Assembly: GCA_001871415.1 (NCBI GenBank)
Contig: MNWW01000058.1
Location: 1-50,227, forward strand
Source of the DNA: Candidatus Woesearchaeota archaeon CG1_02_57_44
GTDB lineage: Archaea; Nanobdellota; Nanobdellia; Woesearchaeales; CG1-02-57-44
Direction of reading: 5' to 3'
Length of the DNA stretch: 50,227 bases
In this document: positions 1-6,149 of the stretch, one piece after another
Numbering within the stretch: position 1 is the stretch's first letter
Layout of the letters: the number at the start of each line of letters is the position of its first letter
Notes under the pieces: generated by a model
Seen by the model: the letters and a program-made list of their open reading frames with translations, nothing else
Database searches by the model: none
Told to the model about the DNA's origin: nothing
Program-made: the position numbers and the translations under genes

Positions 1-323
1 CCATAGTCACCGAACCAGAAGACCCCCAAGGGCACATTGACAAAGAGGACCATGCGCAGCGGCAGCACGGTGGTCAGCCAGGACAGGACCACAAAGACAG
101 GAACCTGCCATCGCATGAACCGCCGGACCCTCCTGCCGATCCAGTACCCCATGCTCGCCGCGAACGCGCCGATAAAGATGCCGATGACCGCGGGGTGCAC
201 GCCAAGCGCGACAGCGCCGCCCGCGGCAGCGGCCGCTCCCAGAGTGCACAGGGGGCAATGCGCCGCGGCGCGTGGCAGGGCGAGCAGGGACAGCAGCGAC
301 GCGAGCATGCCTGTGCCGACCAT
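1..323 (-). CDS. CPLC-motif membrane protein, 3' end cut by window edge
   Basis: This is an open minus-strand frame from ATG at 323 to the window edge, so it is absent from the ORF track. A GGAGGT sits about 10 bases upstream of the ATG. The visible ~107 residues begin with a hydrophobic stretch, then a CPLC motif near residue 23-26, a small-residue (Ala/Gly) membrane helix, a basic turn (GRRVRR) and a third hydrophobic segment. It is the last visible gene of the thiol-redox cluster, 123 bp after the DUF411 gene. The CPLC next to a membrane helix suggests a thiol or metal role; this is inference, and I do not know a characterised homologue. Alternatives are a small metal transporter or a DsbB-like electron carrier. 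Confidence 0.7.
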   Translation of the reverse strand, partial: MVGTGMLASLLSLLALPRAAAHCPLCTLGAAAAAGGAVALGVHPAVIGIFIGAFAASMGYWIGRRVRRFMRWQVPVFVVLSWLTTVLPLRMVLFVNVPLGVFWFGDY

Positions 324-446
324 CGATGCGAGACCTCCGCGCGTCTTGCGCGCAGAGGTGGCGCGCGACGGCATCAGTGACGACGAGAGCTCGCGCGGTC
401 GCGCGCGGTCAGTGCATGTGTGCGGTGAGTGTCTGTCCATGCTGCA

Positions 447-899
447 TCATATCGTCATGAAGGTGCTCACGCGGCCATCCTTGCCCACGGCGCTTATTGC
501 CCATGGCCCGGTCTTGGGCCCTGGCATGCCGGGCGTGCCTGACGGCATGGCGGCAAGCCCGATGCCAGCTATATCGGGCTGCTCCTGCATCAGCTTGCTG
601 ATCGCTTCCACCGGGACGTGCCCTTCGACAAAATAATCGCCGACCCTGGTCGTATGGCAGCTATACAGCGTTGTGGGGACACCGTACTGCTGCTTATAGA
701 CATTCACGTCCGGCACATCGATGACATTCACTTTCCATCCCTTGCTCATCAGGTATGAACCATACGATCCACAGCATCCGCAGCTCGCGGACTTGTAGAT
801 GGTGAGCTCGCCAGCGGCAGCGACTGGCTCGGGCTTGAGCACGAGTGCCCCGACACTGGCGATGATCACGACAAGCAGTATCCAGACTATTGGTTTCAT
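447..899 (-). CDS. DUF411 family metal-binding protein
   Basis: 150 residues with an N-terminal hydrophobic anchor or signal (about 4-20), then a thioredoxin-fold-like DUF411 domain. The family hallmarks are visible: CGCC (C40, C42, C43), CHTT (C81-H82), EGHVP (H94) and a GxPGMPG run near 121-127. DUF411 proteins are commonly linked to copper or other thiophilic metals, usually in the bacterial periplasm; here it would sit outside the membrane. Its ATG overlaps the stop of the CcdA-like gene (ATGA), with GAGGTGAG just upstream, so the two are translationally coupled. That points to a shared job in handling extracytoplasmic thiols or metal. Confidence 0.88.
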   Translation of the reverse strand: MKPIVWILLVVIIASVGALVLKPEPVAAAGELTIYKSASCGCCGSYGSYLMSKGWKVNVIDVPDVNVYKQQYGVPTTLYSCHTTRVGDYFVEGHVPVEAISKLMQEQPDIAGIGLAAMPSGTPGMPGPKTGPWAISAVGKDGRVSTFMTI

Positions 900-1840
900 T
901 GTCTCACCTCTTGATTCTCGCGCCTCAGCGCGATGATGATGGATGCGACTAGGGCGACGAGCAGCAGCGCGCCTATCCCATGCAGAAACGTATCGTTCGC
1001 GAGCATCCAGCGTTGGATCCCGTAAAACTGGTCCTTGAGGCCGAACATGTTGAATCCGTTGGCCTTCCAGGTGCCTCCATAGAAGACGAAGACCAGCCCG
1101 ATCAGGATATAGATGGCGCCGGAGACCACGCTGAGCAGGGCGACGTCGCGGCCGCGCAGGCGCACTTGCCTTCGCACCCAGGATGCCCTGCTTACCCGTC
1201 CACGAAAGAGGATGGCCAGCAGGAACAGGGGGACGAATATCCCCATGCTATAGGACATCATCAGCAGCGCCGCCTTCCCGTAGTGGCCTATGACCGCCGC
1301 CATCAGCAGCACGCTGGAGAGCACCGGCCCGATGCACGCGGTCCAGCCGAGCGCGAACAGGGCGCCTGTCCCGAGCATGCCCCCTGCGCTCTGCCTTGCG
1401 CGGCCGGGGTCGCGGGAGGCAAAGGGGCTGGCAAAGCCGTGTCCTGACAAGGTCAATGAGCCAAGCGCGATGAACACGAGTCCTGCGAGCGGAACGAGCC
1501 ACCCTGCGCCGGAGAAGAGAGTCACCAGTGTGCGGCCAAGCGCGGCTGCTATCAATCCCATGCTGACAAATGTCCCTGCGAAGCCAAGGAAGAAGAAGAG
1601 TGTTGCCCGCACCAGGCGATGAGGGTCCTGAAACGTGCTGGCCAGATACGCGGGCAGGATTGGCAGGATGCAGGGCGAGAAGATGCTGGTCAGGCCTGCA
1701 AGGAACGCGATGAACAGGGACACGGTGGCGAGCGTCTGCACAGCCAGCTGCTGGTTGTAGTCCGTGATGGCCGCCAGCCCCGGGGGGAGCTCCGCCAGAG
1801 CCGGCAGCGCCAGCAGGAAGAACGCGCAGAGCATCGCCAT
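896..1840 (-). CDS. CcdA/DsbD-type transmembrane thiol-electron transporter
   Basis: 314 residues from ATG at 1840, chosen because MAMLCAFFLLALPALA is a signal-like start and the longer 386-residue ORF runs back through the preceding gene in a non-protein-like stretch. The two Cys of the CcdA core are present: FSPC (C57, followed by the P-rich ILPILPAYL) and GWTACIGP (C169). About six further membrane helices follow. CcdA/DsbD proteins pass electrons from cytosolic thioredoxin across the membrane to outer thiol proteins. The upstream neighbour with three CxxC thioredoxin-like modules is the natural electron acceptor. The downstream DUF411 gene overlaps it by four bases. No clear ribosome binding site precedes this start, so it may differ by a few codons. 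Confidence 0.86.
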   Translation of the reverse strand: MAMLCAFFLLALPALAELPPGLAAITDYNQQLAVQTLATVSLFIAFLAGLTSIFSPCILPILPAYLASTFQDPHRLVRATLFFFLGFAGTFVSMGLIAAALGRTLVTLFSGAGWLVPLAGLVFIALGSLTLSGHGFASPFASRDPGRARQSAGGMLGTGALFALGWTACIGPVLSSVLLMAAVIGHYGKAALLMMSYSMGIFVPLFLLAILFRGRVSRASWVRRQVRLRGRDVALLSVVSGAIYILIGLVFVFYGGTWKANGFNMFGLKDQFYGIQRWMLANDTFLHGIGALLLVALVASIIIALRRENQEVRQ

Positions 1841-1929: not shown

Positions 1930-3009
1930 TCACGTCGCCGCCTCCGTGACGATGCTGCGCGTCCCGTTGGCAAGGTAGGTCGTGCCGACGCCCAGCCCGC
2001 TCATGTCCCGGAAGATGAACGATCCATCCGGCTCCTGCGTCCCGACCTGCTGCCAAACGGTAATCAGATTGGCATACATACCCATCTCGCTGCTCAAGAT
2101 CACCGTCGGCACATTGGTGATGCCATAGCGGGCGAGCATCGCCTTGCCTTCATCGCTCTGCGCGGAGAGCGACTGCTCCGTGCCGAAGCCAACGCCGAAA
2201 CGCGAGAGGATCCCCTTATGCACGCTCACATCGTAGCAGTCGGCGCAGGCAGGCGCGGTGATGAAGGTGATGTTGACGAGCCCTTGCACCTCGCCCGTCG
2301 TTGGATCCTCGAAGGGAGCGTCAGGCGTGAACAGGTACGATCCGTCCTGACGGGCCTGCGACGCAAGGTTCGGCGCGATGTCAGGATAGGCCGAAAGCGA
2401 TGCGTCGATGAGCAGCGCCGGCAACTTTGTCACATTCCATTGCCCTGCGGCAATGCCCGCGCGCGCGTCGGGGGCTGCGACATGCTGGATGTCAAGCGCC
2501 ACGCCGCTGCCGCGGAGCGCGTCCAGCGCGGATGAATAATTGAAGCATTGCACGCACGATGATTCCAGGACGACGGCGCGAACGACGCCCACGGTGGTGA
2601 GTGCATTCGCGTCCACAAAGGGTATCGCCTTAGTCTGCACCACAGGATCCTGGAGCTTGGCCTTCTCCAGTTCACCGACCATGACCATCGCCGGCAGGCG
2701 CGTGATGCCGTGCTGATCGATGAGCGCTCTGGCCTGCGCTATCGACTCCGCTGTCGATCCGGGACCGGACATCAGCAGCGTGGTTTCCTGGGTCACGTTC
2801 GCCTGCTGCTTGATGCGCGCGACATCTGGCAGAGTCGGGCAGTCCGCGCAGCCAGGGTCGATGAGTGTCAGCTGCAGCTGCGCGGGCCGGGAGCGCTCCT
2901 GTGTTGCGACGATAGCATCATCGACGGTGCGGGACATCGATATGCTGACCGTGGCATCATACACGATGAGCGCGAGCAGTAGCGCAGCCATCAGTGGCAA
3001 GATCCTCAT
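1930..3009 (-). CDS. Membrane-anchored protein with three thioredoxin-like CxxC modules
   Basis: 359 residues. Start is the ATG at 3009, placed nine bases after AAGGAGG; the ATG at 3018 touches the ribosome binding site and is unlikely. An N-terminal hydrophobic anchor (4-17) is followed by three repeats of the same plan: a CxxC (CADC 54-57, CVQC 152-155, CADC 255-258) and, about 45-50 residues later, a cis-Pro-like motif (RLPAM, KLPAL, NVPTV). This looks like three tandem minimal thioredoxin-like domains displayed outside the cell. It precedes the CcdA-like gene and probably receives electrons from it. CADC and CVQC are not the classical CGPC or CPHC active sites, so redox potential and direction are open; a metal-relay role is also possible. 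Confidence 0.82.
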   Translation of the reverse strand: MRILPLMAALLLALIVYDATVSISMSRTVDDAIVATQERSRPAQLQLTLIDPGCADCPTLPDVARIKQQANVTQETTLLMSGPGSTAESIAQARALIDQHGITRLPAMVMVGELEKAKLQDPVVQTKAIPFVDANALTTVGVVRAVVLESSCVQCFNYSSALDALRGSGVALDIQHVAAPDARAGIAAGQWNVTKLPALLIDASLSAYPDIAPNLASQARQDGSYLFTPDAPFEDPTTGEVQGLVNITFITAPACADCYDVSVHKGILSRFGVGFGTEQSLSAQSDEGKAMLARYGITNVPTVILSSEMGMYANLITVWQQVGTQEPDGSFIFRDMSGLGVGTTYLANGTRSIVTEAAT

Positions 3010-3100
3010 GTGATTCATCCTCCTTGTCGACCAGTACTATCTCCTGAACGGCACCATCGTTGAGCACCGGGTCTCTTCCTATGTCGTCACCCAGCTTCCC

Positions 3101-3478
3101 TCAGCAACCACCGACCATCTGCGGCAGGTTCTGGATGTTCTGCTGCAAGGTGCCGCCAGCAGCGCCGCCGGACGCGGCTCCGCCTGAGGGCGCCGACGAC
3201 CCCGAGAGCGGGTTCACTGATGCAGTTGCTCCATTGAGTGAGGCGCCCTGCAGCTTGGCTTTCACGCCAGCGAGCGTGAATGCCTGCACGGTCGCCATGA
3301 CCAGCAGCAGGCCCAGTATGACCCCGAGCACGATGCCGCGGGTGTTCCTTGGCGCTGGCGTCTGGGGCGGAAGGTGGTGGTATGCGGGTGGTGCAGGATG
3401 TGCTCCTGCTGCTTGCCCTGTCCCCCGCGTATGCGAGGCCGTATGCTCTTCGTGATGTGCGTCTTTGGTCTGTGCCAT
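3101..3478 (-). CDS. Small single-pass membrane protein with C-terminal MVGGC
   Basis: 125 residues from ATG at 3478, which has GAGGGA seven bases upstream; the ORF-track start at 3505 lacks this. The order is a His- and Pro-rich N-terminus (1-45), one membrane helix (about 49-70), a Gly/Ala/Ser-rich linker, and a short tail ending LPQMVGGC-COOH. The only Cys is the last residue. The next gene upstream ends LPGMVGGC, so the tail is shared by two otherwise unlike proteins. The terminal Cys could be a lipid or metal attachment point or a mobile thiol for the neighbouring redox proteins (inference). I do not recognise a characterised family. Confidence 0.75.
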   Translation of the reverse strand: MAQTKDAHHEEHTASHTRGTGQAAGAHPAPPAYHHLPPQTPAPRNTRGIVLGVILGLLLVMATVQAFTLAGVKAKLQGASLNGATASVNPLSGSSAPSGGAASGGAAGGTLQQNIQNLPQMVGGC

Positions 3479-3506
3479 GCTGTATCCCTCGTCCCGAACT
3501 CTCATT

Positions 3507-3630
3507 ATATCTCACTATGCTGTGCCTGTACGGTGCTGTTCCTGCACGCCGCGCGTGTCATACAGATACCCGCCCTGCCGCGTCGCAATATATCTCACTA
3601 TGGTGTGCCTGTATGGTGCTGTTCCTGCAC
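3507..3630. repeat. Imperfect 41-bp direct repeat, two copies 83 bp apart
   Basis: Copies at 3507-3547 and 3590-3630 match except at about two positions. A degraded third copy of the middle part follows near 3631-3665. The repeat fills the gap between the two MVGGC-tailed genes. Read on the minus strand, each copy ends with GTGAGATATA, a TATA-like box; the copy nearest 3507 is about 26 bp before the start region of the downstream gene. The repeat therefore looks like a duplicated promoter segment rather than a coding remnant. Confidence 0.75.
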
Positions 3631-3711
3631 GATGCTGTGCTTGTACGACCTTCACGCCGTACAGCGCAGGTATCATTGTCCATCTTCCTTTATCCTCTGT
3701 CTCCCTTTTCT

Positions 3712-4413
3712 CTAGCACCCTCCGACCATGCCGGGCAAGGCCTTGATACTGGAAGGATCTGTGCCAGCTACCTGCATGCCAAGCCCCACCATGTCGCGTG
3801 GGAAGAACAAGGTCTTCCAGCGCATGACCTCGCGCACCACCTGCGCGTCCGAGTAGTCGGTGTTGTGCAGCAGCGAGAGCGTCACCGCGAGCAGCGCGGG
3901 GTTGTGCTGGCAGCCGCAGAGGCTCTCGCCATTGCTCGCAGCGGCGATGGGGCCCACGCCGCAGCAGTACTCGCAGGAGAGCCCATGCGGCTTTGCCGCG
4001 AGCTCAAGGTAGCGGTTCCATGCGTCAGGGTCGGTGCGCTTGACCTCGTCCTTGATGGTGGGGAACCACTGGGAAAGATACGTGAGGCTGTTGATGGGAT
4101 CGTCAAAATTCGCCCCGCCGATGTACTGGGTGTATTCAGGCGTTCCTGTAGGGAACAGCACGGTCATGACAGCCTGCTCGTCTGTTGCGCCCTGTAATTC
4201 AGGGAAGACTGCCGCGAGGTTCTGCGCTGTTCCCTGCAGGCCATCGAGGTCGATGCCTCCGAGTTCCCTGGCAGTGCCGGAGAGCGAGGCCCTCGTCGAT
4301 GGTCTCGTCAACTGGTCCGCGGCCGCGGACAAGGCGTTGACCTGCACCTGATTGAACAGGACCAAGACCGCGACCAGCGCGATCGCGATGTACACAGCTG
4401 GATGTTCTTCCAT
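3712..4413 (-). CDS. Membrane-anchored CEYCC/CGC protein with C-terminal MVGGC
   Basis: 233 residues. One N-terminal membrane helix (about 6-21) is followed by an extracytoplasmic domain. Cysteines cluster as CEYCC (147-151) and CGC (166-168) followed by H170, then a helix rich in Leu and Tyr, the motif KTLFFPRDM, and the terminal LPGMVGGC. The Cys/His cluster resembles a metal or haem site, or an exchangeable disulfide pair (inference). It is the first gene of the minus-strand cluster, divergent from the BlaI-like repressor gene, so it is the most likely direct target of that regulator. I believe related small proteins with this tail occur in DPANN genomes, but I know of no assigned function. 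Confidence 0.78.
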   Translation of the reverse strand: MEEHPAVYIAIALVAVLVLFNQVQVNALSAAADQLTRPSTRASLSGTARELGGIDLDGLQGTAQNLAAVFPELQGATDEQAVMTVLFPTGTPEYTQYIGGANFDDPINSLTYLSQWFPTIKDEVKRTDPDAWNRYLELAAKPHGLSCEYCCGVGPIAAASNGESLCGCQHNPALLAVTLSLLHNTDYSDAQVVREVMRWKTLFFPRDMVGLGMQVAGTDPSSIKALPGMVGGC

Positions 4414-4607: not shown

Positions 4608-4645
4608 AGTAAAAGTTAATAAAGGTTTCTGTGCTTCTATGTCCC

Positions 4646-5053
4646 ATGCGCAGCATGTCCCTGTCCAGCAAGGTCAGCCAGCCCGTGCTCAGCGACGTTG
4701 AGGCGAGCATACTGGACGTGCTCTGGGACAAGGGCGAAGCCCGGGTACGCGAGATCCATGACATTGTGAGCAAGAAGCACCAGGTCGCCCATACAACTAT
4801 AGCAGTCCTGCTGGATAGGATGCATACGAAACAACTGGTCACAAGGAAAGTAGAATCCTGTAAGGGCGGCTTTCGCTACATCTACCGCCCTGTGGAATCA
4901 AAGGACGAGTTCAAGAGGAGTGCGATGCAGCACGCTGTGGACAAGCTCATAGACACCTTCGGTGCCAGCGCGACGAGCTACTTCAATGAGCGCTTCGGCA
5001 CATCAGCCAAGGCATCAAAGACACGCGACAGCGCGGCTGAGGGAGGCAGATAA
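4646..5053 (+). CDS. BlaI/MecI/CopY-family transcriptional repressor
   Basis: 135 residues from ATG at 4646, about 26 bp after a TATA-like TTAATAAA, giving a leaderless transcript; GTG at 4631 and ATG at 4655 are alternatives. The N-terminal winged helix is typical: LSDVEASILDVLW, then VREIHDIV, the recognition region HTTIAVLLDRM and the wing with YIYRPV. The C-terminal 60 residues form the dimerisation part. The family represses its targets by binding TACA/TGTA dyads and is inactivated by proteolysis (BlaI) or metal (CopY). One base separates it from the BlaR1-like protease gene, so a protease-coupled pair is likely. Probable targets are itself and the divergent redox cluster. Confidence 0.9.
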   Translation: MRSMSLSSKVSQPVLSDVEASILDVLWDKGEARVREIHDIVSKKHQVAHTTIAVLLDRMHTKQLVTRKVESCKGGFRYIYRPVESKDEFKRSAMQHAVDKLIDTFGASATSYFNERFGTSAKASKTRDSAAEGGR

Positions 5054-5054
5054 G

Positions 5055-5816
5055 ATGTGCCTCACATGCTTTCGCTCATTCATGGCGATCCCCTATAATT
5101 TCTGGCTCACCACCGGGAGCCTCACCGCCGCTGCCGTGATGATACTTCTCTTCTACACCTATCGGGACACGATGAGCAACAGGGTCAAGATAGCGCTCAT
5201 CTACGGGAGCATCGTGCTGACGGTGTTTCCCATATTCCACTATGTGTACGCCAAGACCTGCGGGTCGGTCATGATCTCCTGCGGCAAATGGCACGCGCTG
5301 CTCTACTCGCTGATGGGCAGTCTCGGCATCGCTCTGGTCGCGCTGCTATTGCTCACGCCCCTCCTGGTGAGATGGCGCAAGCAGCGCGTCCAGCCCGGGA
5401 CTGACCTTGACGCCCGCGTGCGTATGCTGGCCACCGCGGTCGGCGTGAAGGTGCCGAGGGTCTATGTCAAGGACAGCGCCCAGCCCGTAGCGTACACGGT
5501 CAGCCACATCTCGCCATTGATCATCATCAGCGTCGGCATGCTGGAGCTGCTCGACCAGGACGAGCTTGACGCCGTGCTGCTCCATGAGCTCGGTCACATA
5601 CGCCAACGCACCGGCCTCCTGAAGACCGCGCGAAGCATGCTGCGCCTGATGCTGCCAATCGCAGGGTTCAATGCGTTCGGCAAGGAGCTTGATGAGGAAG
5701 AATCGCGGGCGGATATGGTCGCGGCGCATGTGCAAGGAACCACCGAGCACCTGCTCTCGGCCAAGGAGCGCCTGTCCTTGTTCGCGGATGAGCAGGCGAT
5801 GCCATCTTCGCTATGA
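5055..5816 (+). CDS. BlaR1-like membrane metalloprotease (M56/M48 type)
   Basis: 253 residues from ATG at 5055, one base after the repressor stop; the ORF-track start at 4962 only extends into that gene. About three or four membrane helices occupy residues 10-105. Zinc protease motifs follow: HELGH (177-181) and a downstream EEESRAD (214-220) supplying the third ligand. Paired with a BlaI homologue, it should be the sensor that cleaves or triggers cleavage of the repressor. There is no penicillin-binding sensor domain. Instead C69 and C76 lie in the loop between helices 2 and 3, and C2 and C5 form a CxxC at the very N-terminus. These could sense thiol or metal state (inference). Confidence 0.85.
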   Translation: MCLTCFRSFMAIPYNFWLTTGSLTAAAVMILLFYTYRDTMSNRVKIALIYGSIVLTVFPIFHYVYAKTCGSVMISCGKWHALLYSLMGSLGIALVALLLLTPLLVRWRKQRVQPGTDLDARVRMLATAVGVKVPRVYVKDSAQPVAYTVSHISPLIIISVGMLELLDQDELDAVLLHELGHIRQRTGLLKTARSMLRLMLPIAGFNAFGKELDEEESRADMVAAHVQGTTEHLLSAKERLSLFADEQAMPSSL

Positions 5817-6065: not shown

Positions 6066-6149
6066 TGCGGGAGACAGGGTTCGAACCTGCGTATGCGCTA
6101 AGCAAATAGGCCCTGAACCTATCCCGTTTGACCACTCCGGCACTCCCGC
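6066..6149 (-). tRNA. tRNA-Leu (anticodon CAG)
   Basis: 84 bases including discriminator A. Acceptor stem GCGGGAG pairs with CTCCCGC. The anticodon stem ATAGG/CCTAT encloses TTCAGGG, giving CAG. A long variable arm marks it as class II, and the T arm reads GGTTCGAACC. No intron. A T-rich stretch follows the 3' end on the minus strand and probably terminates transcription. Confidence 0.95.

Follow-up and report, generated by a model that had tools for sequence, protein, structure and literature searches.

Two adjacent genes of a woesearchaeal genome encode proteins ending in the same pentapeptide, MVGGC, and this C-terminal tail is a real shared functional module linked to an undescribed membrane-anchored Cys-rich family of tiny, mostly uncultured archaea and bacteria, here called BIG. 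The two genes are on the minus strand, with 206 bp between them, in the stretch of 50,227 nucleotides (the window) taken from Candidatus Woesearchaeota archaeon CG1_02_57_44. BIG (233 aa; 3712..4413) consists of an N-terminal membrane helix, an all-helical, presumably extracytoplasmic domain and the tail LPGMVGGC (residues 226-233; 3715..3738), so that the protein ends in SSIKALPGMVGGC (ALPGMVGGC-stop). The small protein (134 aa; 3101..3505) has no Pfam match and is composed of one membrane helix, read from the sequence at about residues 57-76 (3278..3337), a Ser/Ala/Gly-rich linker and the tail LPQMVGGC (3104..3127), ending in QNIQNLPQMVGGC (NLPQMVGGC-stop). The earlier note on this DNA had thus correctly described both proteins as ending in LPxMVGGC and the final Cys of the smaller one as its only Cys. 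BIG has six Cys residues, located in CEYCC, CGC and at the C-terminus. The tail codons differ between the two genes, which indicates selection at the protein level. In the same genome, P..MVGGC followed by a stop codon occurs only at BIG and the small protein, and the reversed-pattern control gave no match.

To see how far the tail extends, GTDB species genomes were scanned for P..MVGGC-stop, which returned at least 116 stretches. About 77 plausible real loci were found among the matches listed, most of them with the pair of BIG and small genes, in Woesearchaeota, Pacearchaeota, Diapherotrites, Aenigmatarchaeota, Micrarchaeota, Patescibacteria (Magasanik-, Uhr- and Paceibacteria) and one member of the Desulfobacterales. 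MVGGC-ended proteins elsewhere therefore share their context, the point on which the earlier note had proposed to check its observation. In the phylum of the window, ATGGTNGGNGGNTGYTRR is present in 99 of 371 genomes, mostly two to three times inside ~1 kb, compared with three sites in total for the reversed-pattern control; chance, already considered improbable in the earlier note, is ruled out as the origin of the tail. BIG is encoded in 104 of these 371 genomes, including all 99 with the tail (Fisher p ~1e-84, relatedness ignored), and the five BIG genomes without the exact tail have variants or remote relatives. The association of the tail with BIG is obligate in this sample, and one or more tails are encoded in each of the 17 BIG genomes tested outside the phylum. 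BIG matches were obtained in 13 of 192 genomes of Patescibacteria (eight of them strong) and in 1 of 96 genomes of the order of the desulfobacterial representative, which suggests that the latter copy (L062) was probably acquired horizontally. Genes were called by simple ORF picking, and the genomes are incomplete MAGs.

Not all matches represent genes. The MVGGC series in the alphaproteobacterium RGIG4812 (L015, L032, L055, L113, L118) proved to stem from in-frame translation of a GC-rich inverted repeat between genes; this repeated element of a rumen organism, translated as KKPPxMVGGC, is an artefact to be kept in mind in tail searches. Isolated matches in Proteobacteria, Paenibacillus and others fall in very short or odd ORFs and were taken as chance. 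In the collection of papers searched, none describes an MVGGC tail, the six text matches being in unrelated papers, and none unites DPANN with CcdA and thioredoxin.

In an alignment of 64 BIG sequences the invariant residues are G90, P92, C147, C150, C151, C166, C168, H170, W199 and P205, among which C147-x2-C150-C151 ... C166-x-C168-x-H170 (3904..3975, minus strand) make up the Cys/His core. Sequence and fold searches gave no Pfam, NCBIfam or PDB match. The AlphaFold2 model of the window BIG has a pLDDT of 92, and its Foldseek comparison with the PDB returned nothing at E<=0.001 (best E 3.2, TM 0.16), so that, judging by the model, BIG apparently represents a new helical fold. The tail stays fixed even though the linker that separates it from a conserved FP varies between 21 and 60 residues. 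In the window model, block 221-230 has a mean pLDDT of 94 and residues 231-233 a mean of 79, while in a Micrarchaeota homologue (L107) a linker with pLDDT of 53-57 is followed by a tail with 84/75. AlphaFold2 thus predicts a confidently placed tail behind a disordered linker, although a high pLDDT of the tail is not proof of docking. The desulfobacterial protein (L062:5694-7109, minus strand, beside a DUF1573 fragment) combines an apparent signal peptide, an FKBP domain, the BIG domain and the MVGGC tail, and this domain order supports the placement of BIG and its tail outside the cell.

For a census of tails, we started from BIG matches and not from the tail itself. Among the 118 BIG loci, BIG ends in MVGGC in 94, in QVGGC in two and in MVGAC, MAGGC, IVGEC and QVGGCF in one each; the remaining 18 have no tail. 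A tail is therefore present in cis at 100 loci, 97 of which also have one in trans and three of which (two near contig ends) do not, and in trans only at 18, since every one of the 18 tail-less BIGs adjoins a tailed small protein. Orthologues thus retain the tail, the absence of which from them would, by the earlier note, have refuted the observation. There is no BIG locus without any tail, a zero that is not significant alone, ~1 being expected. The LP of the window tails is another matter: only MVGGC is generally conserved, and LP is limited to one operon type, the other having Ser/Gly or AP in its place.

The strongest evidence that one partner probably reads both tails comes from concerted variants. 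The same variant is found on BIG and on the small protein in four genomes from four families, namely, LPGQVGGC/LPKQVGGC in G011, LPGQVGGC/LPSQVGGC in G317, GMAGGC/GMAGGC in G287 and PDQVGGCF/PDQVGGCF in G340, and one pair is discordant (MVGAC/MVGGC in G227). For four co-occurring deviations among 95 pairs the hypergeometric p is 8e-6, independence being assumed. The variant-bearing BIG and small genes differ by synonymous codons, which rules out recent gene conversion as the source of their identical tails and suggests that a single receptor probably recognizes both.

Operons encoding BIG are of two types, and the window locus is a hybrid carrying both sets of neighbours. All on the minus strand, a membrane-anchored thioredoxin-like protein with several domains and C-x2-C repeats (1930..3018; Thioredoxin_3 E=3.4e-4, under the curated cut-off, with E=3.6e-6 for the relative L027_9), a CcdA/DsbD-type membrane electron carrier (896..1840; PF02683 E=3e-12), a DUF411 protein with CGCC and GMPSGTPGM (447..899; PF04214 E=4e-21) and a multi-pass membrane protein with an HCPLC motif (3..440, its 3' end beyond the window; cluster 5), which matches no Pfam or NCBIfam family, are encoded beside the pair. 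Divergent from these are genes for a BlaI/penicillinase-repressor-type regulator (4631..5053, plus strand; PF03965 E=1e-18), found at 10 of 53 LP loci, and for its partner, an M48/M56-type membrane metallopeptidase (5055..5816, plus strand; PF01435 E=3e-11), found at nine of 53; tRNA-Leu (cag) lies beside the cluster (6066-6149, minus strand). In LP-type loci (n=53) the thioredoxin-like protein occurs in 49, CcdA in 41 and DUF411 in five. The corresponding numbers for non-LP loci (n=46) are six, four and 29, and these loci also encode the HCPLC/CPLC membrane protein (35) and a MarR-type membrane regulator (42); the "CcdA" label given to non-LP operons by single linkage covered mostly DUF411 proteins, and the counts were repeated with clean models. 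A soluble-looking helical family of ~150 aa with conserved W-C-x-S-K-H (cluster 8; L046:6968-7465 and L043:7042-7476, both on the plus strand, and others), which has no Pfam match, often adjoins the HCPLC protein. BIG and the small protein are the sole members shared by the two operon types, which makes BIG the likeliest and simplest receptor of the tail.

BIG is linked to copper proteins by its genomic context. Cupredoxin_1 is present in 92 of 104 BIG-positive and 138 of 267 BIG-negative genomes (phylogeny ignored), and of the 81 strong cupredoxin matches in BIG genomes, 24 are found no more than 8 kb from BIG, where ~1-2 would be expected from genome size. BIG neighbours also include CopA, DUF411 and PCYCGC proteins, a CuA/COX2-like protein (L031) and a protein in which a multicopper-oxidase-like HPMHLHG motif was recognized by eye (L345). 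The window genome, which is 82% complete, has no Cupredoxin_1 match. In Pseudomonas, a DUF411 protein is reported to respond to copper (PMC6444534), and DPANN archaea with CuA-bearing NosZ-like proteins have been described (PMC10936187). The association with DUF411, cupredoxins and CopA, together with the MxxxMH motif of some tailed small proteins, suggests extracytoplasmic handling of copper or thiols. A metal or thiol site is plausible, a metal site being one of the roles suggested for the tail in the earlier note. Met is not essential: the occurrence of QVGGC argues that Met does not bind copper and makes it unlikely to be an obligatory metal ligand.

A single Cys is present in 102 of 127 small proteins. 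The second class of small proteins, which accounts for loci with three tailed proteins, has DTTGWTENExMNYEMHGxIPAR or YEEMMARMHPDQ ahead of the tail and carries the MxxxMH/MxYExH motif. After trimming of the tail, the N-terminal membrane segments of small proteins score against those of BIG with a median of 8.9 bits, compared with 3.25 for a TM-matched background that has outliers. This similarity in sequence suggests that the small protein may be a BIG that lost its domain, in which case the tail would be shared by descent. The two proteins, regarded in the earlier note as unlike, do differ in domains but may thus be related, and their common tail, although not due to chance, may not be a case of convergence. 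A remote sister family in Patescibacteria has a CC...CxH or CC...DCNHG core and Gly-rich Cys tails (GGCGV, GGGGCGV), one of its members (L345) having two tail copies in tandem; remote relatives of the BIG core with PCC...DCNHG or PCCG...CECGHH (L342-L346, L249, L252, L258) end in GGGCGA, GGGGCGV or TGGC. A domain followed by a C-terminal Cys tail looks like a trait of the superfamily. BIG is fused to a GCPxCGA membrane domain in L020:210-1601 (plus strand) and L035, and the sister family to seemingly the same domain in L345:1285-2790 (minus strand). This domain may be a membrane partner of the BIG system; standalone copies, which have no Pfam match, are encoded nearby in L005, L009, L018 and L067.

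Taken together, these observations point to BIG and its tail as a new thiol- or copper-handling device outside the cell. We tentatively favour, at somewhat less than even confidence, a reading in which MVGGC is a tethered docking peptide with a reactive terminal thiol that is read by the BIG domain. BIG, anchored by its single N-terminal helix, would expose the extracytoplasmic Cys/His cluster CxxCC...CxCxH, and its own tail, tethered by a linker whose length varies, would fold back and present the terminal Cys to this cluster. Small proteins, whose long flexible linkers end in the same tail, would dock on BIG in trans, either to provide the tail where BIG has none or to act as shuttles. What they carry would most likely be Cu(I), possibly together with thiol/disulfide exchange, on a putative route, with a presumed direction of transfer, including BIG, DUF411, copper exporters and cupredoxins; in LP-type operons CcdA and the thioredoxin-like protein would keep the thiols reduced. 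A broader formulation is slightly more speculative still: BIG may define a new superfamily, in which one universal C-terminal thiol peptide, exchangeable and supplied in cis or in trans, serves the folded Cys/His domain. It would be a plug-in ligand that several membrane-tethered proteins share and with which DPANN archaea and Patescibacteria handle copper (or thiols) outside the cell.

Other explanations account for part of the data. In a pure thiol-redox relay, the thioredoxin-like protein and CcdA would use the tail Cys both as substrate and as docking tag, and the tail Cys would pass electrons to the BIG Cys cluster without any metal being moved. Such a relay fits the frequency of both proteins in LP-type loci, the enrichment of the CcdA/DsbD_TM family in BIG-positive genomes (77/104 versus 113/267 in BIG-negative ones) and the invariant CxxCC. 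However, non-LP loci have the same tail with few thioredoxin-like or CcdA genes (6/46 and 4/46), copper context is found in both operon types and a single-Cys protein cannot close a disulfide of its own. We therefore consider the relay rather unlikely; by the same counts, the docking tag for CcdA/thioredoxin proposed in the earlier note has partial support, agreeing strongly with the LP type (49/53 and 41/53) and weakly with the other. Even less probable is that the tail is a signal for an enzyme which modifies or sorts both proteins, e.g. by attaching a lipid or some other group to the terminal Cys. A short, position-fixed and portable motif behind variable linkers, repeated on two to three protein types in tandem and changing in concert, would suit such an enzyme. 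Nevertheless, informal inspection of the clusters examined showed no candidate, so that the lipidation or sorting signal of the earlier note is less well supported; besides, the motif is absent from other proteins of its own genome and never occurs without BIG in the sampled phylum, BIG and the small protein are already membrane-anchored, and QVGGCF shifts Cys off the end.

Concerted changes and the predominance of single-Cys small proteins (102/127) could also reflect pairing of the two tails with each other, by an inter-protein disulfide or strand pairing, into a hetero-complex. We regard this as improbable, because BIG or the small protein often bears the only tail of the genome (G371, G374, G491, G500; G376-G379, G526, G563). 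Finally, the resemblance of the N-terminal helices would agree with plain shared descent, the small protein being a BIG stripped of its domain, with the tail as a relic that has no specific reader. The tail, however, is near-invariant across DPANN and Patescibacteria despite a diverging linker, and it is replaced in concert; both require continuing selection by a common reader, and we find a readerless relic very hard to believe. Near-fixed over two domains of life, changing in concert on two different proteins and, in the sampled phylum, never found without one undescribed family, the tail cleanly exemplifies a peptide code held in common. Through it, "hypothetical" genes of uncultured DPANN and CPR become a machine that can be tested by way of a small peptide, and it provides an entry to extracytoplasmic copper and thiol handling by reduced cells.

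Several known systems resemble BIG and its tail in part. LPxTG/sortase and PGF-CTERM systems rely on C-terminal sorting signals, and the MVGGC tail shares with them a short C-terminal motif with LP; yet it stands at the extreme end, with neither a C-terminal membrane helix nor a basic tail, its LP is not conserved, and it does not qualify as an LPxTG-type sortase substrate. CcmH and PCYCGC proteins (PF13798), the latter encoded in some BIG clusters (L029, L043, L063), likewise have a short Cys motif followed by helices. They were not among the 25 listed of 32 Pfam families matched by 64 BIG members at E<=1, and the BIG model has no Foldseek match to any solved structure. Mobile thiol tails entering a redox or metal site are known from mercuric reductase (C-terminal Cys pair) and thioredoxin reductase (GCUG tail), but these are flavoenzymes whose tails act within the same dimer, whereas BIG is a new helical family with a portable single-Cys tail. 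Similar in concept is the copper chaperone for SOD1 (CCS), whose domain 3 has a flexible C-terminal CxC tail proposed to donate copper and a disulfide to a folded partner. Compared by description, the MVGGC tail is also C-terminal, Cys-bearing and flexible, but it is a near-invariant pentapeptide with a single terminal Cys, occurs in cis and in trans, is membrane-anchored and belongs to prokaryotes.
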